DNA of 36,209 nt from a virus. Location: positions 1 through 36,209 of IMG/VR virus record IMGVR_UViG_3300010885_027927; one strand, 5' to 3'. The notes below the pieces were generated by a model. It had not been told where the DNA came from. It saw only the letters and a program-made list of their open reading frames with translations, and made no database searches. The translations under genes and the position numbers were made by a program. Numbering within the stretch: position 1 is the stretch's first letter; the number at the start of each line of letters is the position of its first letter. Positions 6,392 to 16,843 of this stretch are shown one piece after another.

Positions 6392-9300
6392 TTACTTGAT
6401 GCCGGCTAATTTTTTCATCGTTAAAGAAATATCTTCTTTAACAATTTCTGCTTTCACCTTTGTATGTGGTAGAGTTGTTTGATCACTCTTTGGACCATTT
6501 AGACCACCACTAATAATATGTGACATGAATTTAACGTCGGCTCTGAATTGTTCATCTTCACTCTTGGCATTTCTGCTATTAGCCCACTCGTCTATCTTTT
6601 CATGTTCGCAAGAGCACTTGCTTTCGTACATACCACATTCATTGCACTGCTCTTCTGACTCGTCAACCTTTTCTTCTTTGTGATCTTCGTTTTCAGATGC
6701 GTTGTCTTCTTCATCTTCTTCATCTTCTTCAGTGTCTTCGTCTTCGTCTTCTTCATCATTCTCGTCTGACTCGTCTATTTCATCAGTGCTAAATTGTTGT
6801 CCAAAAGCATTAAAAGATTTTTTACCATTTTTTTCTGCTTCAGAGTCTTTTTGTTTTAACCATTGACCCTTGCTTACTTCATCTAATTCTTCTTCACACT
6901 CGCATTCTTCGTGACCACATTCTGAGCAAGTTTCTTCTGAAGAATGATCATGCTCTGAATGATCATCGCCACGAGAACCAATCATACGCTTTAAGAATTC
7001 AAATTCTTGATCGCCGCCGTCACCATCTGATGGTTGTAATTGACCTAACACTTCGTCTTGTGCCATTGGCTCTACTTCAATGCTCTGCCCGTCAGTTGAA
7101 TCCGCATGTTGCATTCCAGCATTCATTCCAGCACCAATTCCAATTCCGGCACTGGATAAAATCTTCATTAAAGATTGAGCGTCTTCGTCTGTAGCACTGA
7201 CACTAACACTGTCTCCCATACCCTGTTGCCCAGTAGAAGTGGTAACAGTCATGCCTTCTTTTAGTAGTGACTGTAATTGACGATCCCAGCTTTCCATTTG
7301 AGCGTCTTTTGTTACTTTAGCGTGTGATTGTTTTTTAGAATTATTATTAGTCATTTTTTTGTTTTCCATCATAAAATCCTCTTCCATGTTCCATTCTTCA
7401 TCAACTGATTGATCTGGAAATGGAAACTGTTCATCCATGACATCAGTTATTTTGTCATCAGCAATTGGACTCACCAGCGAATCGCGTGACGCTGTTGTAT
7501 CAAAATGCTGCTCCTCATCTATCAACGGAGCAGTATCTTCCATGTAACACTTGGTAACATGATCACGAAGTTCTTCTAATGGACCATGCCAAATCTTGTA
7601 AGGAACACGACCTTCACCATGATAATGATCAGCAAGTGCTTCATACAGGCTTTCATCCATTGTCCAGCCCTCTTCGCACATTTTACACTCATGTGGAAAT
7701 CTCTTTTTGATGTCTTCTAGAGTGTAACCTTCTGTGATTGAATTTTTGGATTCTTTCATTGCTTGTTTGCGAATAGTAGCAAAATACACATCTTCTCCCT
7801 CTTCAGAACCATATTGATCCTTCATTGAAGCCTTCATGCCAGATTTGTCATACTTTTGCTTTAGACTACGCTCTTTTGCCAGATTGGCAGCAGTCATTTT
7901 CTTTTCGTCTAATTCTTCTTCTGCTACTGGTTGTTGACCTTGTGTTGTTTGTTGACCTTGTGTAGTTTGTTGACCTTGTGCTGTTTGTTGACCTGGTTTT
8001 ACTGCGGTAGTTCCAGTTGCAGTTTTTTGTCCTGCTTGACCTGGTTGGCCCATGCCTGCTGTATTTTGTTGTTGCAGTGGTAGCTTAGCATCAGGGACTC
8101 CAGTTATTTTTCCCTGCTCTATACCCTGCTGAAGTGTTCTTGCTAGATTAGGGTCAGTTGTTTTAATTGCTGGTGCTGTCTGTCCAGGACGAGGCTGTTG
8201 AGTACCAGATGCAGAAGGAACAAACATAGTGCCGGGTGGTAATTGTTGTGCTTCAGCCAACATTGTTGACTCAACATGTTCCATCCAGTCCTTTAGCTTG
8301 TGCTTGACGCTTGCTTTACCTGGTAGTGTCTTTGGCTTACTACCCACGATCCAACTAGATAGTTCGTCAGTGTCCCACTTCTTTACTTCACCAGTGTCAC
8401 TGTCACTGTCTTTCTTTGGGCGACCGCGTCCGCGCTTAGGTGCATCTGCACTCTTCTTTACTTTTTTACCAGTGTCATCTTCGTCGTCTTTGCGACCATA
8501 TCCGCCCGGTTCTGCTTTATGTACACGACCAGTTTTAGTTTCTTTAGTACCTTCGGTGACGGATTGCTTGTCATCTGATAGACTTTGTAGAACACTGTTC
8601 ATATAGTCGGCGGCTTTAGTGATTTTACTTTGTTGCCAAGCCTCTAGTCCTTCTTCTTCGCTCTTTTGTCTAATCATGTCCAATAGTTCTGAGGCATCTT
8701 TAGTGATACTTTGTAGCTCACTGCTGGCCATAGAAATTTCGTGATCTTGCTCTTGTTCGCTTTCAGTCACTTTGCGCTCAGGTAAATGCTTTACTTGAAA
8801 TGACGTGAAGGCAAATGTGTCTTTATGTTTGCCATCTTCTCCGACACGACTAGGATCGTCTAGTTTAACCATACAACGATCTTCACCGCGATCAGTGTCT
8901 TGTGTGTACTTAACAATAACACCCATACCTAGTGGAGTTTTAACACGATCACCTACACTGTAGGTATTCTTGTAGCCTTCCGCCACACCTTGCTTACTCT
9001 CATCTTTTAGCTTGTGCTTGACGCTTGCTTTACCTGGTAATGTCTTTGGTTTACTACCTACAATCCAACGGGCTAATTCATCAGTGTCCCACTTCTTTAC
9101 TTCACCAGTGTCACTGTCACTGTCTTTCTTTGGGCGACCACGACCGCGCTTAGGCGCATCGTCGCTCTTCTTTACTTTTTTGCCACCATCATCTTCATCA
9201 TCTTTACGACCATAGCCACCTGGATCTGCTTTGTGAACACGACCAGATTTGGTTTCTTTAGTGCCTTCGGTCAACTGTTTTTTACCATTAGCGGCATATA

Positions 9301-9397
9301 AGTTAGCAACTTTCTTAGATGAATCATCCATATCACCAGTTGACTTACTTGTCTCACTTAATTGATCCATTTTGGAAATTAATGATTTCAAATCCAT
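6392..9397 (-). CDS. 1001-aa acidic repetitive head-associated protein, candidate prohead-processed polyprotein
   Basis: No known full-length family is recognised. A roughly 91-aa module occurs twice (residues 42-132 and 280-370), containing KRGRGRPKK, an AT-hook-like DNA-binding motif. Between the copies is a small beta-barrel-like stretch (SVGDRVKTPLGMGVIVKY, about 147-164). Residues 386-490 are Gln/Pro/Gly-rich with GQQTTQ repeats. Cys clusters occur at 571-574 (CKMC), 824-834 (CSECGHEECEC) and 918-930 (CNECG...CSC). Residues 873-917 are almost pure Asp/Glu. T4 prohead protease cuts after (L/I)xE; matching sites occur at LTE-G (44-45), LAE-A (382-383), ITE-G (556-557) and LKE-G (714-715). 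The N-terminus MDLKSLISKMDQ is amphipathic. It follows the capsid-targeted 203-aa gene by 11 bases, and AGGAAAAATC precedes the ATG. A head-interior or scaffold role is inferred. Confidence 0.85.
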   Translation of the reverse strand: MDLKSLISKMDQLSETSKSTGDMDDSSKKVANLYAANGKKQLTEGTKETKSGRVHKADPGGYGRKDDEDDGGKKVKKSDDAPKRGRGRPKKDSDSDTGEVKKWDTDELARWIVGSKPKTLPGKASVKHKLKDESKQGVAEGYKNTYSVGDRVKTPLGMGVIVKYTQDTDRGEDRCMVKLDDPSRVGEDGKHKDTFAFTSFQVKHLPERKVTESEQEQDHEISMASSELQSITKDASELLDMIRQKSEEEGLEAWQQSKITKAADYMNSVLQSLSDDKQSVTEGTKETKTGRVHKAEPGGYGRKDDEDDTGKKVKKSADAPKRGRGRPKKDSDSDTGEVKKWDTDELSSWIVGSKPKTLPGKASVKHKLKDWMEHVESTMLAEAQQLPPGTMFVPSASGTQQPRPGQTAPAIKTTDPNLARTLQQGIEQGKITGVPDAKLPLQQQNTAGMGQPGQAGQKTATGTTAVKPGQQTAQGQQTTQGQQTTQGQQPVAEEELDEKKMTAANLAKERSLKQKYDKSGMKASMKDQYGSEEGEDVYFATIRKQAMKESKNSITEGYTLEDIKKRFPHECKMCEEGWTMDESLYEALADHYHGEGRVPYKIWHGPLEELRDHVTKCYMEDTAPLIDEEQHFDTTASRDSLVSPIADDKITDVMDEQFPFPDQSVDEEWNMEEDFMMENKKMTNNNSKKQSHAKVTKDAQMESWDRQLQSLLKEGMTVTTSTGQQGMGDSVSVSATDEDAQSLMKILSSAGIGIGAGMNAGMQHADSTDGQSIEVEPMAQDEVLGQLQPSDGDGGDQEFEFLKRMIGSRGDDHSEHDHSSEETCSECGHEECECEEELDEVSKGQWLKQKDSEAEKNGKKSFNAFGQQFSTDEIDESDENDEEDEDEDTEEDEEDEEDNASENEDHKEEKVDESEEQCNECGMYESKCSCEHEKIDEWANSRNAKSEDEQFRADVKFMSHIISGGLNGPKSDQTTLPHTKVKAEIVKEDISLTMKKLAGIK
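8288..8560. repeat. Intragenic direct repeat, copy B
   Basis: Encodes residues 280-370 of the 1001-aa protein and is nearly identical at protein level to residues 42-132 (9002-9274). The copies lie 714 bases apart. Differences are mostly single substitutions (SGRV/TGRV, DDGG/DDTG, LARW/LSSW), showing an in-frame duplication that is still kept intact. Confidence 0.9.
9002..9274. repeat. Intragenic direct repeat, copy A
   Basis: Partner of 8288-8560. Each copy begins at a TEG motif that fits prohead-protease cleavage or a near-match of it (LTE-G here, VTE-G in the other copy), so the repeat unit may correspond to a released fragment. Confidence 0.9.
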
Positions 9398-9408
9398 GAT
9401 TTTTCCTA

Positions 9409-10020
9409 TTATTTCTTCTTAGCTGATGCACCAGTTTCTGGTCTTGGCATACGATTGATTTTTGACATTGGACTATTTACATTTCCAGCACTCAAACGCA
9501 TATCTTCGGCAGGTTTTGTTTTTGGGGCAGCAAATGACATATCCATCTTGTCCTTTTCGTGGGCGGCGCGTATCCTAGACATATACTGTTCGCCATATTC
9601 TTTGCTAGCTTCTTTTCCGGCATCTTCTAATGTTTCGTGTGTTAGAACTGGACTATGATCAGCTTGATTGGCGTATTGCTCCATTTCACTATCAACACCC
9701 TCTGCATAATCAGCTTGAAGCATTCTGACCATGTTCTCGTCATAGTTTAGTAGTCTAGCTAGTTGTTTTACCATTGGTTCTGTGCAAGGATACTTGAATT
9801 CTACATCTATAATGGTCACTGGCTGATTTTTAACATCATTGAAGCCAAGAGGATTTTTCTGAATTGGCTTGGAATTTGGTGTACCAATCTTAACTGGATC
9901 AAACTTTTGTAAATTCATAACAAACATATCCATCCAATTCTTTCCGGGATCGCCGCAAACGCTAATCTTATATTTGTATGATCTAACGGATTCCATTAAA
10001 AATTGCTTAAAAGTCTTCAT
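9409..10020 (-). CDS. Internal head protein with capsid-targeting N-terminus, 203 aa
   Basis: The protein starts MKTFKQFLMES. This closely resembles the capsid-targeting sequence of T4 internal proteins (MKTYQEFIAEA), which is removed by the prohead protease after (L/I)xE; here LME-S fits. The body (about 14-125) has alternating strands and helices (YKYKISVCGDPGKNWMD, PVTIIDVEFKYPCTEP); the tail is Lys/Pro/Met-rich and probably disordered. It is likely carried in the prohead core and cleaved during maturation. The ATG at 10020 has AGGAAT upstream and a GATAAATA late box 26 bases before it. It lies between gp16 and the 1001-aa protein, in a head-assembly block. The function of the mature domain is unknown. 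Confidence 0.82.
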   Translation of the reverse strand: MKTFKQFLMESVRSYKYKISVCGDPGKNWMDMFVMNLQKFDPVKIGTPNSKPIQKNPLGFNDVKNQPVTIIDVEFKYPCTEPMVKQLARLLNYDENMVRMLQADYAEGVDSEMEQYANQADHSPVLTHETLEDAGKEASKEYGEQYMSRIRAAHEKDKMDMSFAAPKTKPAEDMRLSAGNVNSPMSKINRMPRPETGASAKKK

Positions 10021-10580: not shown

Positions 10581-10588
10581 TATTTATT
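10581..10588 (-). promoter_or_regulatory. Late promoter box AATAAATA abutting gp16 start
   Basis: Minus-strand AATAAATA overlaps the gp4 stop codon (10587-10589) and ends 8 bases before the gp16 ATG. With T4 spacing (+1 six bases after the box) the transcript would begin about 3 bases before the ATG. Confidence 0.55.
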
Positions 10589-11021
10589 ACTTACGCCCAT
10601 TGAAGAACATTTCGTTTTCTGTAATTATTCTAAAGCGAATACCCATTTTTTTACACCACTCGGATGCTGATTTCCACTTGGCCTGATTGACGATCACTGC
10701 TGCTTGATCTCTGCGACTCTTGCCCGCTTCTTGCAAGTTTGTTTGTTTGCTGGGTTTGATTTCTACTAGTTCGGCAGTTGTTCTACCGGTTTTGTCTTGG
10801 TAAACAATAAACACATCAGGAACATATATAGTTTGTTTACCAGTTAATGGATTGCGATAGGGTATATGTATGGATTCGCTTGCCCACTGAAGAACTTTGT
10901 CGTTGTTATCACAGAACATAAAAAATGTAAGTTCCCATCCGCTGCGATATCTAGGCTTACCCTTCCCAATGTATTTCTGTGGGTTTTTAAGTTCATAAAT
11001 TCCTTGTGCCCATCTAGCCAT
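10587..11021 (-). CDS. 4: Head completion protein, T4 gp4-like (TnsA/nuclease-like fold)
   Basis: A 144-aa protein whose whole length matches the T4 gp4 family: NPQKYIGKGKPRYRSGWEL, then QWASESIHIPYRNPLTGKQT, VPDVFIVYQDK and AELVEIKPSKQT, ending with NQAKWKSASEWCKKMGIRFRIIT. The Asp of VPD and the Glu and Lys of EIK look like the metal-binding triad of PD-(D/E)xK nucleases. gp4 acts late in head filling, before the tail joins. The ATG at 11021 lacks a clear Shine-Dalgarno. It follows the small 117-aa gene by 12 bases and precedes gp16. Confidence 0.9.
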   Translation of the reverse strand: MARWAQGIYELKNPQKYIGKGKPRYRSGWELTFFMFCDNNDKVLQWASESIHIPYRNPLTGKQTIYVPDVFIVYQDKTGRTTAELVEIKPSKQTNLQEAGKSRRDQAAVIVNQAKWKSASEWCKKMGIRFRIITENEMFFNGRK

Positions 11022-11388: not shown

Positions 11389-12615
11389 TTAGGGTCCGGG
11401 TCCGCGTGGAGGGTCACTTCCTATTGGTTTTATATCTCTATTTACTACAGAAACAGAATTGGGATCACGAGCATTTTTTGCACCAGCAGATTGTGCACCT
11501 GTACCAGTGTTTGCACCTGCCGCTGGTAAATTAAATATGCCTCTTATGTTATCTGGATTAGTTGCTGCTCCAACAACTTTTGTCAGAACTTCTGATTTGG
11601 CCGCGTTTAATATTTGTGTTGAATTTTTCCAAGTTTTACCCAAGCGTCCACCAGCTTGTATTGCTCTTAGTGCTCTCTCGGGATCACCACTTGACAAGTC
11701 TTCTAATATTCCCAAACCACTATCAATCAATCCATTCTTTCCTAGTATATTTTTATTATTTCCAGGTAAGCTAAGTGGGCTTAGCTCAGTATCGTATGTT
11801 TCTTTCTCTCCAAATCTATCTACTATTGAATTTGGTGATTCACCATTTAATGCTCCCTCCAAGTACTTTACAGTTTCATAACGAACAGTCATGGAATTTT
11901 CCATTATTCCTCGTGTGTCATAATAACTATAATTATCGTGGTTAAAACTTTCAATCATTGGGTTTATTAATTCATACAGTGCAAAACTGTGCTGATTAAA
12001 CCCGTATACTTTTATTGATTTGAAAAATGCAGTCTTGTTCTTATTATAGATACTGGATCTAATAATATTGCTTGAACTTACATCTGATTTTAAGCCCCAA
12101 TCCTGTTGTTTACTGATATCGGGATCATATGTATTTTTTATGCTTAATTCATTTACAGCAGAACCACTTAGTGAATTAGCACTGCTTATATAATTTGGCT
12201 GACTTGGATCACTGTAGTAATAATTGAAATAAGCATGCCATAAGTGTCTTACTTGATTAGCATTATCGTCGTGAAAAGTTATTCTTATTGGATCATAACT
12301 TATTTTAGTTTGAACAAACCTTTTACGATTGTATTGATTCATTTCATGTAATTGAATACTGAATTTTGGCAAATCAATACTCTTTACTAGCAATCCTAAA
12401 TTAGTGGTTGAAGGAAAAACTTTCTCAACCAGATCGCCCGCAACTGCGACTTTACTTATATCAAAATACACATGAAACAGCCACTTGAATTTTGGACTAT
12501 TTTCATAGCCAGCATTAACAAAAGTTTTGCTAGCGTGCTTGTAATCTTTTAAGTAAGGAGAGCCGAAGAATCCATCTCCGGCCCCTTTTAGAAATTGCTG
12601 AAAAAATCCAGCCAT
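11389..12615 (-). CDS. Second tail-tube-like protein (baseplate tube initiator type), 408 aa
   Basis: The N-terminal roughly 330 residues look like the gp19/gp54 tube fold: KFKWLFHVYFDIS, LGLLVKSIDLPKFSIQLHEM, YNRKRFVQTKISYDPIRITFHDD, then LWHAYFNYYYSD and MTVRYETVKYLEG. The C-terminal roughly 80 residues are low-complexity Gly/Ala/Asn ending in DPPRGPGP. It lies 3 bases after the tube gene, separate from it in sequence, so it probably forms a distinct ring, such as the tube-initiating or junction layer at the baseplate. GGAAGC precedes the ATG with 6-base spacing. Assignment to gp54 specifically is uncertain. Confidence 0.78.
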   Translation of the reverse strand: MAGFFQQFLKGAGDGFFGSPYLKDYKHASKTFVNAGYENSPKFKWLFHVYFDISKVAVAGDLVEKVFPSTTNLGLLVKSIDLPKFSIQLHEMNQYNRKRFVQTKISYDPIRITFHDDNANQVRHLWHAYFNYYYSDPSQPNYISSANSLSGSAVNELSIKNTYDPDISKQQDWGLKSDVSSSNIIRSSIYNKNKTAFFKSIKVYGFNQHSFALYELINPMIESFNHDNYSYYDTRGIMENSMTVRYETVKYLEGALNGESPNSIVDRFGEKETYDTELSPLSLPGNNKNILGKNGLIDSGLGILEDLSSGDPERALRAIQAGGRLGKTWKNSTQILNAAKSEVLTKVVGAATNPDNIRGIFNLPAAGANTGTGAQSAGAKNARDPNSVSVVNRDIKPIGSDPPRGPGP

Positions 12616-12618
12616 AAA

Positions 12619-13263
12619 TTAGCTTCCGCCGATACCGCTTACGTTTGTGCCTAGTGTTCTGCCAACTGCTACACCAACGCCGTATGCTGGACCATTGCCA
12701 TCCAATGGGGTTTGTGTTGCATTATCAAATCTAATACTTAGCGTAATTGTAACTGGTTCATTTGTTCCATAATTCAATGAATTATAATTTGCACTGGCAA
12801 TGTAGCAACCATAGAGTTCCCAACTTTCCAATATATTTGGTGTTGTTACTCCGCGAGCGCCATCCAGAACTTGACACACTAATTTGAACTTGTAATCACT
12901 GCCACTGCTGGCACTTGCTTGCTCTTGAAAGTCAAACTGTTTCTGAATTTGCTCACCAACTCGTCTTGCAATTTCACCAGTAGCATCGTCACGCAAATTA
13001 ACAGTGACTGCCTGCCATGTTGGTTTTCCAGCTAGATATATTCTGCTGTTGTACAATTCAATTGGTATTTCACCAAATTCTACATTTGGACGAGTAAAAT
13101 CTATTACTTGTTTTGTTAGTTCAGTTGTTGGCTTACTTACTCCAAAATTCTCAAACAATACACGGAATCTGTATTGTAATTTTGGCATCAATAAACCCTG
13201 AGCATCACCAGTTCCATCACTGCTTGTTGGTACTGTCATTCTTGCGATTGAGCTAAAAGCCAT
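12619..13263 (-). CDS. 19: Tail tube protein, gp19-like
   Basis: A 214-aa protein starting MAFSSIARMTVPTSSDG. The start at 13263 is set by AAGGAG nine bases upstream; a TTG further upstream has no such site. Tube-fold features are the N-terminal YRFRVLFENFG, then RPNVEFGEIPIELYNSRIYLAGKPTW, the LRDD loop, and a C-terminal ELYGCYIASANYNSLNYG followed by the strand TITLSIRFDNA. Hexamers stack inside the sheath to form the DNA conduit. It follows the sheath gene, as in T4, but a stable hairpin and a GATAAATA late box lie between them, suggesting separate control of the two doses. Confidence 0.9.
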   Translation of the reverse strand: MAFSSIARMTVPTSSDGTGDAQGLLMPKLQYRFRVLFENFGVSKPTTELTKQVIDFTRPNVEFGEIPIELYNSRIYLAGKPTWQAVTVNLRDDATGEIARRVGEQIQKQFDFQEQASASSGSDYKFKLVCQVLDGARGVTTPNILESWELYGCYIASANYNSLNYGTNEPVTITLSIRFDNATQTPLDGNGPAYGVGVAVGRTLGTNVSGIGGS

Positions 13264-13283
13264 GGTTTGTATCTCCTTATTAT

Positions 13284-13291
13284 TATTTATC
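13284..13291 (-). promoter_or_regulatory. Late promoter box GATAAATA for tail tube gene
   Basis: Minus-strand GATAAATA 20 bases before the tube ATG, with AAGGAG between them. It begins three bases after the sheath/tube hairpin. Confidence 0.6.
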
Positions 13292-13293
13292 AT

Positions 13294-13315
13294 GGTCAGG
13301 AATTGCTTCCTGACC
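13294..13315 (-). promoter_or_regulatory. Sheath/tube intercistronic hairpin with GCAA tetraloop
   Basis: Perfect 9-bp stem (GGTCAGGAA / TTCCTGACC) closed on the mRNA strand by GCAA, a GNRA tetraloop. It starts 6 bases after the sheath stop. No T-run follows, so it is more likely an mRNA 3'-end stabiliser or processing site than a classical terminator. Confidence 0.75.
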
Positions 13316-13321
13316 AATTAA

Positions 13322-16300
13322 TTATCCGCTTATTTCCCCAGTGTTCAGAAGACGAACTGGAACATAGATAAATTCAACTGCCTTGGCAGGCTCAATTGCT
13401 ATATCAATCCATAATTCATTTCTGTCTATACGAGCCGGAGTGTTATTTGTCTCGTCACACACTACAACATAGTCATAGATACCACGCTTACTTAGTATGT
13501 CAGCAAGTAATGTCTGAACTACGCCGCGAGCTTCATTTCTAGTGATTGTGTCGTTTGGCTCAAATATGAATGGTCTTAACGCTCTTTGTAACTGATAACG
13601 AATATAGCATACTAGACGAGAAACGTTAGTTCTGTCAAGGGCACTTTGGCTATCAAAAGAGTTTTTATTTCCGTAATTCAATATTCCAATATTAGTGAAA
13701 TATGATATAGGATTAATAAAGTTTGTATATTCAATGTCTCGTAGAGCAACACGATTCTTTGTTGTAACAAATTCACCAGTTGTTGAGTCAATATAACCAA
13801 TGTTGCTGGCATTATCAACTATTCCACGACGCTGACCCGCTGGAGCAAACCATGGATACGCAACATTATCGTTGTAAATCATAGTGCGAAGTATCATATG
13901 ACTTGATGGAACAACAATTTCTGCTCCAGTTAAATCAGTTGTAATTCCACTTGGATAGTACACGCCCATGTAAGTATTGCGTGTAACTAGCGCATCTTCA
14001 CCAGTACCAGTTGCACCAGCAGTATTGGTTGCCCAATTTACAATGTCATTGGCGCTGTCTGCTAGACGCATTGGAGTATCACCAATAATGTAAGCAGTTT
14101 GTCCACGATCATTATTTAGAACAACCATGTCTGGCTGTAACTCAGGATATCCAGGAGCAGCAATCAGATTGAAAAATGTGTCTTCTTCGCGGATCTGAAC
14201 GTTTGTGTTTATAGCAGTTTTTAATTTCTGCACGACCATGTTTCTCTGAGCTTTACGACCCATATATGGAGATCCATCGCTCTTTAGTCCACTTACTGTA
14301 ACCCATGTGCTTTTCTCGGCTGGCAATGAATTGCCAGGATAATTTGCACTAGTAAAGTAATTTGTGCGATACTCTTTTACATTGTATCCACTGCGACGAG
14401 TGTTAAACAACAATGTTCCTGTAGGATACTTTGTTGCGTCTGGAGCATCCAAGTCCAAATAATTACTGTTTAGTAATCCTGCAATACTTGGAAACTCACT
14501 TTCAACTGGATCAATGCTTCCAGATGTGGCCCAGCGAGCGTCTGCAAATAGTACACCGTTTTCAGATGTTTGATCTGTGTTGTCTACGCGAACCCATTGA
14601 TCAACATCATCTACGGATTGCCAGCGATTGATAGCTGGGTAGTTTTCCAAATCACTAGTGTCAATCCAAAGATCTCCATAAGCAAGTGATCCACCGTTAC
14701 TGTTGGCGGCGGGCTCACTAGCACTAATTATTGGTCCATTTGTATCAGTTGCAGGAGACCCAGATGATTTTGGAAGACCGTTACTAGCATATGCTACAGT
14801 GCGATATCCCTTCCACTGACCGCCAACATTTGTCATAATGTCAACTTGATTGACTGCACTAAAATACCATGGTGTGCCATTTAATGGGTACTGTGTTGGT
14901 GTTATTTCATTAGGAATGTAATTAAACACTCTCCAGTTACTCAACTGCACTGTGTACTGTGGTTGTGCATATCCACTAATCCATGTAACTCCAGTAATAC
15001 CACCAGAAGAATTTACTGCAGTAACTTTGACTTCATATTTGGTATTCAATGGATTAGCATCTTCTATTTCTAATACATCACCAACTTCATAAGCAGCACC
15101 GGGAGTGGTAACTGTAAATGATGGAATGTATCCTGTTGTAACAACTTGTAGCTTTGCAAGACCAGTATTAACCTCTATATCTGTGTAAGTTAGTGTTTTG
15201 TATGGACCCCACTTAGCACCAAGAGTTGTTCCACTGATAAATCCAGCTTGTGCAAGTACATTGGACTTTGATTCGTCATCGAGAACAATCACTCCGCCAT
15301 CCAGATGAGTTAGAACAATTGCGCCAGTTGGAGAAACTTCAGCAGTAGTACGAGAAATATTTGCAGCAGTCCATGCTGTTACGAATTCACTTGAACCAAT
15401 AGCAGTTGTATTTACTGGCATAGTAACAGTGTAACTGTCACTTAAGCTAGCATCGTTAGGCTGGCTTACTTTAACCTTAAATGATACTGTAGATGAATTT
15501 GTACTTGCAGTAATTGTTGGACGGGCTATTGATCCAACAAACACAGATGGTCCTGTTCCAAATCTACGGAATACTTGAACTGGATTTAAGAAATTACTAA
15601 CGTTTGAACCGTACTGTGCGTATAGTGTGCCGTCGGGAATATTCTTTCCTCCAGTACTGTCTAGCGTGTTGTTAATGGCCCAGTCGTTGGTGCTCATTGG
15701 ACAATTTCTGGAGCTGAAACTACCAATAGAAGAACTGTACTGTCCAAAAACCAAGTTTGTTCCAGCGTTTGCAGAATTTGTTTTTATCCATACACTACCA
15801 CTTGGACGAGGCTGAGCATCAGTGCTTCTCCAGAGAGGCTGCTGAGCATTAGAACCAAAAACTACAGTTGGAGCATTGTAAGTAGCAGGAGTAATTCCCA
15901 ACTGAGTTAATACAGTAGATGAACCAACTATTCCTACTACAACTTGCTGATCAATTTCACTGTACAGTACTAGACTATTATTCTCAGCAACAGCAGACAC
16001 AAATGGTATATTGGCATCATTAATAGAAGACACAAGATTTTCTAAAGTATTGTTTGGAGCAGCACCAATAGTAATTGTTACTCCGTTAATAGAAAATGAT
16101 GCACCCTCTGTTAAAGCTGGAGAAAGTAGTGATGTTCCCTGCACAGCAGGTAAATTGTTTCTCCAACTTGGACCACCGAGTTCAACCCAAGAATTATTGC
16201 TCTGCTTGAACCAGTAAGTTGAATGACTGGATGGCTGTCTGGCACTTGTAAAATTGTTACTATTAGTAACCATTGATATAGCATAATCACCAATGTTACC

Positions 16301-16843
16301 AATAGAAGATTTTGGACGACCATTTACATCGGCCATATCAGCAACTTCTTTGATAAAGAAAGGAATCTGATTTACAAACTTACCAGTTGATTGATTAAAT
16401 TCAAAAATTCCCCATGAACTGTTATCAGTGTCTAGCCAGTAAGTTCCATTAGCAACCTCGGCAGCAGGGCGTGTAGTACGGCCAATCAAACTGGCAAGAT
16501 CAATGTCGGCTCGCAATACATAGCATAAGTTTGATAAGCCCAATACACTATATGCTGACTGTAAACCATACTCATTTAACTCATAACCCTGAAGTGAGGT
16601 GCCATTTGTTGTCTTATAGAAGAATGGATTTCCAAACAGTGTTGTCAAATCACGCTGACTTGTTACTCTGTAAAGCTTGTTTGCATTAGCAGCAATAGTT
16701 CCAGTTGCAATTCCTGTTCCTGCCGCATTTGATTTATTTTGTGCAGTTGCCAAAATAATAAGAGGAACAGTTCCCGGTGCTCCCGGTAAATACTGACTCT
16801 CATCAACAATGTTAACTTGTACGCCTGGACTATTTAGTGCCAT
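13322..16843 (-). CDS. 18: Tail sheath protein, gp18-like, greatly enlarged (1173 aa)
   Basis: The N-terminus (ALNSPGVQVNIVDES, PGTVPLIILATAQNK) and C-terminus (NPISYFTNIGILNYGNK, RDIEYTNFINP, ELWIDIAIEPAKAVEFIYV) match the contractile sheath family; the C-terminal domain holds the inter-subunit strands. T4 gp18 has 659 residues, so about 500 extra residues are inserted in the middle. The insert carries repeated aromatic modules (GTYWLDTDNSSW, STYWFKQSNNSW, GDLWIDTSDL) and beta-rich spacers, probably displayed on the outside of the tail. AAAGGAA lies 8 bases before the ATG at 16843. It is the first gene of the minus-strand virion block and likely highly expressed. No clear consensus late box is seen; GCTAAATA near 16900 is a weak candidate. 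Confidence 0.95.
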   Translation of the reverse strand: MALNSPGVQVNIVDESQYLPGAPGTVPLIILATAQNKSNAAGTGIATGTIAANANKLYRVTSQRDLTTLFGNPFFYKTTNGTSLQGYELNEYGLQSAYSVLGLSNLCYVLRADIDLASLIGRTTRPAAEVANGTYWLDTDNSSWGIFEFNQSTGKFVNQIPFFIKEVADMADVNGRPKSSIGNIGDYAISMVTNSNNFTSARQPSSHSTYWFKQSNNSWVELGGPSWRNNLPAVQGTSLLSPALTEGASFSINGVTITIGAAPNNTLENLVSSINDANIPFVSAVAENNSLVLYSEIDQQVVVGIVGSSTVLTQLGITPATYNAPTVVFGSNAQQPLWRSTDAQPRPSGSVWIKTNSANAGTNLVFGQYSSSIGSFSSRNCPMSTNDWAINNTLDSTGGKNIPDGTLYAQYGSNVSNFLNPVQVFRRFGTGPSVFVGSIARPTITASTNSSTVSFKVKVSQPNDASLSDSYTVTMPVNTTAIGSSEFVTAWTAANISRTTAEVSPTGAIVLTHLDGGVIVLDDESKSNVLAQAGFISGTTLGAKWGPYKTLTYTDIEVNTGLAKLQVVTTGYIPSFTVTTPGAAYEVGDVLEIEDANPLNTKYEVKVTAVNSSGGITGVTWISGYAQPQYTVQLSNWRVFNYIPNEITPTQYPLNGTPWYFSAVNQVDIMTNVGGQWKGYRTVAYASNGLPKSSGSPATDTNGPIISASEPAANSNGGSLAYGDLWIDTSDLENYPAINRWQSVDDVDQWVRVDNTDQTSENGVLFADARWATSGSIDPVESEFPSIAGLLNSNYLDLDAPDATKYPTGTLLFNTRRSGYNVKEYRTNYFTSANYPGNSLPAEKSTWVTVSGLKSDGSPYMGRKAQRNMVVQKLKTAINTNVQIREEDTFFNLIAAPGYPELQPDMVVLNNDRGQTAYIIGDTPMRLADSANDIVNWATNTAGATGTGEDALVTRNTYMGVYYPSGITTDLTGAEIVVPSSHMILRTMIYNDNVAYPWFAPAGQRRGIVDNASNIGYIDSTTGEFVTTKNRVALRDIEYTNFINPISYFTNIGILNYGNKNSFDSQSALDRTNVSRLVCYIRYQLQRALRPFIFEPNDTITRNEARGVVQTLLADILSKRGIYDYVVVCDETNNTPARIDRNELWIDIAIEPAKAVEFIYVPVRLLNTGEISG

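Follow-up and report, generated by a model that had tools for sequence, protein, structure and literature searches.

A 36,209-nucleotide (nt) linear virus record (IMG/VR record IMGVR_UViG_3300010885_027927; hereafter the window, meaning this whole stretch of DNA) encodes a protein of 1001 amino acids (aa) with a KQGVAEG site, and the 18 nt encoding this site, CAAGGTGTGGCGGAAGGC, recur nearly unchanged in unrelated open reading frames (ORFs) of uncultivated phages. Relatives of the 1001-aa protein were found to be mosaics whose modules are joined by QGVAEG, and the shuffling of modules at the repeat is well supported by sequence comparison. The 1001-aa protein is a mosaic and probably head-associated polyprotein, and we consider it rather probable that modules are shuffled in frame at a DNA repeat which also serves as a prohead-protease site, so that encapsidated polyproteins are built up. 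The original prediction for this region had proposed that a T4 gp21-type protease releases a set of peptides from the protein inside the capsid; it overlooked KQGVAE/G (aa 135-141), its invariant DNA and the surrounding mosaic. The main finding is a dispersed in-frame DNA connector, which goes beyond the sites seen earlier.

A dispersed 18-nt element and the exchange of modules

In a scan of IMG/VR, the exact 18-mer was found in at least 120 viral stretches. All of the 253 distinct core occurrences (253/253) lie in the QGVAEG frame, with conservation limited to about 20 nt, and a search allowing up to three mismatches gave 340 copies in 144 loci, again all in this frame, as against one for the reversed control. 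The exact 13-mer core was present in 19 of 20 large records (61 clustered copies, 1-7 in each; reversed control 0). In loci fetched by protein homology, every QGVAE site has the same DNA coding. A codon-blind scan, from which loci already caught by the exact 18-mer were excluded, yielded 72 new in-frame KQGVAEG sites; 42 of these are identical in DNA, and most of the remainder differ by one or two synonymous changes. From codon usage, this coding would be expected in 0.15% of cases, GCG making up only 8% of Ala codons. The top recurrent 15-mers in varied contexts all proved to be the element, the 18 nt are identical between copies whose flanks are unrelated, and the other protease-type sites of the 1001-aa protein (LTEG, VTEG, LAEA, ITEG and LKEG) are encoded by unrelated DNA.

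No inverted repeat was detected in the 18-mer or its conserved surroundings. Rickettsia palindromic elements are dispersed repeats inside coding genes that are longer, palindromic and self-inserting; the present element is like them a dispersed DNA repeat within coding genes, and differs in being 18 nt long, not palindromic and a border of exchanged modules. These elements are mentioned in a review of miniature inverted-repeat transposable elements (PMC10969869). Nor does the repeat behave as a Chi-like signal, for which many copies in all frames would be expected: there are 0-7 copies per record of 57-374 kb, clustered and in one frame. At the sensitivity used, no copy of the 18-mer was found in 50,697 cultured-phage records, the best matches being of 16 nt and at chance level, and 85,000 bacterial and archaeal genomes gave 26 scattered single matches, near chance and many of them in G+C-rich genomes. 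QGVAEG was not found in the open-access literature, descriptions in subscription journals being outside the scope of that search. Other peptide strings were also searched for there and discarded, since the matches listed were to alpha-synuclein or unrelated, by string alone.

Module exchange was followed through the ends of alignments, in loci chosen for carrying the element and with control LxE sites taken from the same ORFs. Among alignments of at least 90% identity, 85 of 173 block ends fall at the element and 3 at control sites; when all alignment ends are counted, 299 fall at the element and 28 at control sites, random positions giving an expectation of 1.5. The window and locus L004 share 99.97% identity over 3016 nt, and immediately after the element they diverge, so that the first inserted module of the window is swapped for another in this near-identical phage. 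A total of 329 internal modules bounded by the element, with a median of 74 aa, fell into 222 clusters (a small sample); the clusters are those of internal-module clustering, single-linkage on all segments having given one giant cluster. Of the 21 recurrent modules (clusters of at least three copies), 20 are flanked on either side by two or more different neighbours. The same junctions were observed in contigs from different samples (L006, L007 and L008; L001 and L002), and about 63 junctions are present in two or more loci (counted as loci, not samples).

Insertions that duplicate the element were seen between close relatives (L084/L115 and L010/L151). On comparing L177 with L178, a native SMSE/ASGY was found to have become SMSE/STNN...KKQGVAE/ASGY, and at another native site AMAE/GRGF corresponds to SMAEG...HLSEQGVAE/GRGF. 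After strict filtering, nine of ten insertions lie at [LIVMF]xE sites (2.1 expected), and this links the joint in the DNA with the cut site in the protein. The comparisons indicate that the repeat is invariant beyond codon bias, is kept in one frame and marks a break in homology, that the same module occurs in many contexts and different modules occur in near-identical phages, and that insertions bring in a module at an x-x-E site that was already there.

Beyond these comparisons we infer cleavage, which is likely, encapsidation of the 1001-aa protein, injection of modules into the host, which is plausible, and a mechanism of recombination. On this reading the repeat, dispersed in frame through unrelated ORFs of such uncultivated phages, is the joint where modules swap, and recombination would take place during phage replication by homology of the repeat or by microhomology with the codons of a native cleavage site. 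V-A-E/G would be cut by the S77 (gp21-type) prohead protease of the phage, so that each swap would stay in frame and be releasable. Leaders resembling the capsid-targeting sequences of T4 would carry the polyproteins into the prohead core, and released modules would be retained in the head and might pass into the host together with the DNA. The stronger proposition, that one universal in-frame joint of 18 bp unites a recombination point with capsid-protease codons, by which arriving modules are automatically fused, packaged and released as injectable cargo, stands in our judgement at an even balance.

In 54 of 605 element copies (L001-L229 and the window), an ATG follows GGAAGG by nine bases, compared with 15 expected. 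An internal translation start at the repeat was rejected as a general role, since most copies have no such ATG; it is possible in some modules.

Layout of the polyprotein, cleavage-type sites and leaders

Both ORFs of the region and their coordinates were confirmed, and the features recognized in them, all on the minus strand, are as follows.

6392..9397, minus: 1001-aa modular polyprotein ORF (from the ORF list; homologs follow the 203-aa gene)
9353..9397, minus: leader helix MDLKSLISKMDQLSE (aa 1-15); its terminal L-x-E site is present in 7/7 aligned homologs
8996..9265, minus: block of about 90 aa, first copy (TKETKSG...VKHKLKD), holding AT-hook 1
9116..9151, minus: AT-hook motif 1, aa 83-94 (Pfam PF02178, 20.3 bits, cut-off 17.4)
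8975..8992, minus: DNA element CAAGGTGTGGCGGAAGGC, encoding QGVAEG, aa 136-141
8777..8977, minus: inserted module 1 (YKNTYSVGDRVKTPLGMGVIVKY..., aa 141-207)
8552..8761, minus: module 2 (DHEISMASSELQ...GLEAWQQSKITKAADYMNSV, aa 213-282), predicted to form a helical domain, bounded by VTE212 and VTE282
8288..8551, minus: block of about 90 aa, second copy (aa 283-370), holding AT-hook 2
8402..8437, minus: AT-hook motif 2, aa 321-332 (located by its register relative to the first copy)
7733..7918, minus: module of aa 494-555 (KERSLKQKYDKSGMKASMKDQYGSEEGEDVYFATIRKQA), with a cyanophage S-T4 match
6653..6775, minus: Asp/Glu-rich tract, about aa 875-915, predicted disordered
9409..10020, minus: 203-aa head/virion protein (homolog of PA5oct 0202; weak phrog_14802 match)
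9991..10020, minus: capsid-targeting-like leader MKTFKQFLME, with a cut-type site before S (L-x-E/S in 9 sequences)

The two AT-hook motifs, the Asp/Glu tract and the Cys clusters noted earlier are present in the translation, the AT-hooks (PF02178, above its cut-off) sitting in a block that is duplicated at aa 45-134 and 283-370 with 88% DNA identity across 246 nt. An unrelated ORF of L061 contains, flanked by two copies of the element, a module 54% identical to module 1. Module 2 has relatives in cyanophage S-SCSM2R and in about 25-30 further ORFs, and the module of aa 494-555 shares 66% identity with a portion of a 539-aa protein from cyanophage S-T4. No PHROGs family was found for the 1001-aa protein, and Pfam gave the AT-hook alone. 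Its predicted structure, built on a seven-sequence alignment, is of low confidence (mean pLDDT 43.8) with small helical islands, and a PDB search with this model gave no match. In other element ORFs, Pfam detected enzyme-like and further domains (GNAT, ParB_N, dCMP deaminase, NT5C, LysM and SutA RNA-polymerase-binding); several unrelated domains occur per chain and vary between relatives, as is the case in polyvalent proteins.

The accepted rule for T4 gp21 is a cut after L/I-x-E (PMC9026906). Sites of the gp21 type, claimed for the 1001-aa protein in the original prediction, are in excess: [LIV]xE before A, G or S occurs 10 times compared with 3.0 in shuffles (P = 0.0015), and the strict L/I version 6 times compared with 2.0 (P = 0.011). 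Four [LIV]xE sites are found in all aligned homologs (LSE15 7/7, ITE556 9/9, LKE714 7/7 and IDE937 7/7), with variation at P2, and the remaining ones are lost or unalignable. An S77 substrate would be expected to show (L/I)-x-E both above chance and conserved; the conservation holds for these four sites. Over the 11 sites with a small P1', Glu is retained in 73% of cells, as against 49% for control Glu. In the low-confidence model, sites 15, 212, 282, 382, 556 and 714 lie at the edges of predicted helical islands and LYE586 lies inside a predicted helix. Because conservation is uneven and LYE586 falls within a helix, some of the sites are likely to be real and some to be due to chance.

Constraint at the protein level was also observed in decayed copies of the element. 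The Glu codon showed 2 amino-acid changes and 16 synonymous ones (Fisher p = 2e-4), Gly and Ala change freely and Val mostly becomes Met or Leu. The retention of Glu and the replacement of Val by Met or Leu are as expected from a protease rule of hydrophobic P3 and Glu at P1. An S77 prohead protease was detected in 6 of 20 related large records, 58-67% identical to the proteases of PA5oct and Phosso, and the gp23 of protease-bearing records keeps L-x-E/(S/N)A with a variable P2.

The leader MKTFKQFLMES, to which a capsid-targeting role had been ascribed, was borne out in the 203-aa protein, L8, E10 and S11 being invariant in 9 sequences and residue 9 being M, A or T. It has the form of a T4-type leader, that is, about 10 residues ending in L/I-x-E before a small residue, and LSE15 at the start of the 1001-aa protein is of the same kind. 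A strict LxE/small leader is present in 40% of element ORFs compared with 13% of other ORFs in the same loci (p = 1e-12), for a pattern that was picked after inspection of the data. At positions 1504-1605 of L028 (record G019), a gp23 profile weakly matches an element-ORF leader (E = 0.0025); this leader, YVLES/ASGGGTSAGSVASV, resembles HLAES/ATAGATSAGNVATL of gp23, and the likeness suggests a shared cleavage region. In L144-L149, the product of a small head gene located upstream of the protease begins with MILNEFFNKEP or MFVTELFDP, similar to the leaders of the element polyproteins in L097 (MILNEFFNNNQ) and L026 (MFVDDLFDQK).

The 203-aa protein is homologous to PA5oct 0202 (E = 4e-9), which is annotated as 'structural protein, ESI-MS/MS' (electrospray ionization tandem mass spectrometry). 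The same annotation is given to PA5oct 0203, which occupies the slot of the 1001-aa gene; this acidic protein contains a Cys cluster and the sequence VEE/TASAGASSAGGIASV, which is similar to the gp23 cleavage region of related records. The model of the 203-aa protein is of moderate confidence, and its matches are to uncharacterized phage proteins alone, one of them from Atu_ph07. The released-peptide reading is thus partly supported, by sites that are above chance and partly conserved, by an L-x-E leader on the neighbouring protein, by the annotation of a homolog of that neighbour and of the protein in the slot of the 1001-aa gene as virion proteins, and by the S77 protease of some related large records; what it missed is the dispersed DNA element.

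Weighing of the explanations and known systems

Several observations weigh against shuffling at a cleavable repeat in a packaged polyprotein. The window carries a single element copy, and the core protein does not depend on the element, since the homologs in L016, L017 and L023 have none. The loci all come from metagenomes and many were selected for carrying the repeat, V at P3 is an extension of the L/I-x-E rule of T4, and most modules have no known function. PA5oct 0203 could not be aligned to the 1001-aa protein, so that virion location follows by gene position alone, and PA5oct 0202 has no LxE leader. As to the gp21-like protease that the original prediction had proposed to look for in the rest of the genome, none was found in the 36-kb contig, and no S77 protease was detected in the closest large relative, a 239-kb record. 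In the window's closest large relatives, S77/S78 proteases, gp23 and portal all went undetected, in a protease-profile search run without a positive control. T4-type portal and capsid genes are not recognizable in the 239-kb record either, its head genes being missing or divergent, and the absence of the protease there therefore says little.

It may be argued that the polyprotein is a prohead core or scaffold protein (gp67/gp22-like, acidic and LxE-rich) which is digested to peptides that leave the head, the modules being functionless passengers after cleavage. The Asp/Glu tract, the mostly low-confidence predicted structure with its small helical islands and the conserved slot beside a head protein are in keeping with this, as is the digestion of T4 core proteins at the same motif (PMC9026906). 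The modules of other element ORFs include enzyme-like domains, however, and related head clusters have separate core-like genes around the protease, judged by position and composition; a scaffold role is possible, though on the unlikely side. A dedicated enzyme, such as a homing endonuclease, recombinase or transposase, could instead recognize the repeat and move modules, with homology being secondary. Such an enzyme would account for the sharp ends and the narrow conservation of about 20 nt, and a fixed sequence of 18 nt fits an enzyme target; HNH-like ORFs were seen in translations beside gp23 in some related records, and Hef-like homing endonucleases are present in the corresponding region of PA5oct. 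Yet the repeat is not palindromic, and the L094/L178 and L177/L178 insertions occurred at native sites having a short part of the motif, to which microhomology is the better fit, and we regard this explanation as unlikely.

Selection at the protein level alone, with QGVAEG as a favoured cleavable linker and uniform DNA arising from codon preference or recent descent, is disfavoured and in our estimate quite improbable. It agrees with the drift of variants by synonymous steps and with the protection of the P1 Glu, but not with a coding so rarely predicted from codon usage, with the unrelated DNA at the other protease-type sites or with identical 18-nt copies between unrelated flanks. That assemblers joined unrelated contigs at short repeats is hardly credible even for data consisting of metagenome assemblies throughout, as the repeat is below the usual assembly k-mer length, every copy lies in one open frame and identical junctions recur in contigs from different samples and in at least two loci.

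The proposed recombination at a repeat that encodes a probable cleavage site shares traits with several known systems. The internal head proteins IPI-IPIII and Alt of T4 have a capsid-targeting sequence and are cleaved by gp21 at L/I-x-E (PMC9026906, PMC3012670). They resemble the present proteins in the short hydrophobic leader ending in L-x-E, the expected location in the head and the diversity of cargo among related phages; in T4, however, each is encoded by its own small gene and cut chiefly at the leader, whereas here many modules form one chain with joints of repeated DNA. The polyvalent proteins of phages and conjugative elements are large and multidomain, and their packaging and injection have been proposed (Iyer et al. 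2017, PMC5512222). They have similarly varied enzyme domains, including ParB-like ones, and recombinational variability has been suggested for one group; in the portion of the source consulted, no DNA repeat at domain borders is described, and internal peptidase domains, rather than a prohead-protease linker, are considered for release. In SPN3US (gp245) and phiKZ, many head and ejected proteins are cut after Glu at short motifs, some propeptides several times, and the parts of the account drawn on here describe neither shuffled modules nor conserved linker DNA (PMC10052503). The ongoing exchange of fragments known as intragenic mosaicism of phage proteins is also similar (PMC10684548), but the exchange point here is a fixed 18-nt in-frame sequence encoding a cut-site-like motif.

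If shuffling at a cleavable repeat is correct, phages would possess their own exon-shuffling-like system, in which a standard DNA connector keeps the frame and lets each new domain be released during head maturation. This would explain why packaged effectors are replaced so rapidly and would be relevant to the origin of protein mosaicism with intact reading frames, and the connector would serve as a signature for hundreds of new small phage domains, as the internal modules already collected suggest.

Genome setting

The tail sheath encoded in the window is nearest to those of the jumbo phages PA5oct, MIJ3, Phosso and Atu_ph07, and the source of the 1001-aa protein is probably a jumbo myovirus of the PA5oct/Phosso/Atu_ph07 type. 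In the window and related contigs the 203-aa and 1001-aa ORFs adjoin, the 203-aa gene being directly followed by homologs of the 1001-aa protein in L001, L003, L016, L017, L022 and others. The gene order in PA5oct is similar, with sheath, tube-like proteins, small ORFs, a protein of about 200 aa and a large acidic protein.

In two other element-bearing records, G008 (343 kb) and G009 (262 kb), T4-type capsid, portal and protease genes were not detected, and their head genes may be highly divergent. The tail sheath of the window has 1173 aa (13322-16843, minus strand); the closest counterparts, from PA5oct, Phosso and Atu_ph07, measure about 880-1090 aa and cover just 60-63% of it. Two adjoining tail-tube-like ORFs lie at 11389-13317 (minus strand), the first with a long C-terminal extension, and a similar pair is found in Phosso. 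At 10587-11021 (minus strand), a head-closure (gp4-like) protein with a TnsA-like endonuclease domain is encoded.

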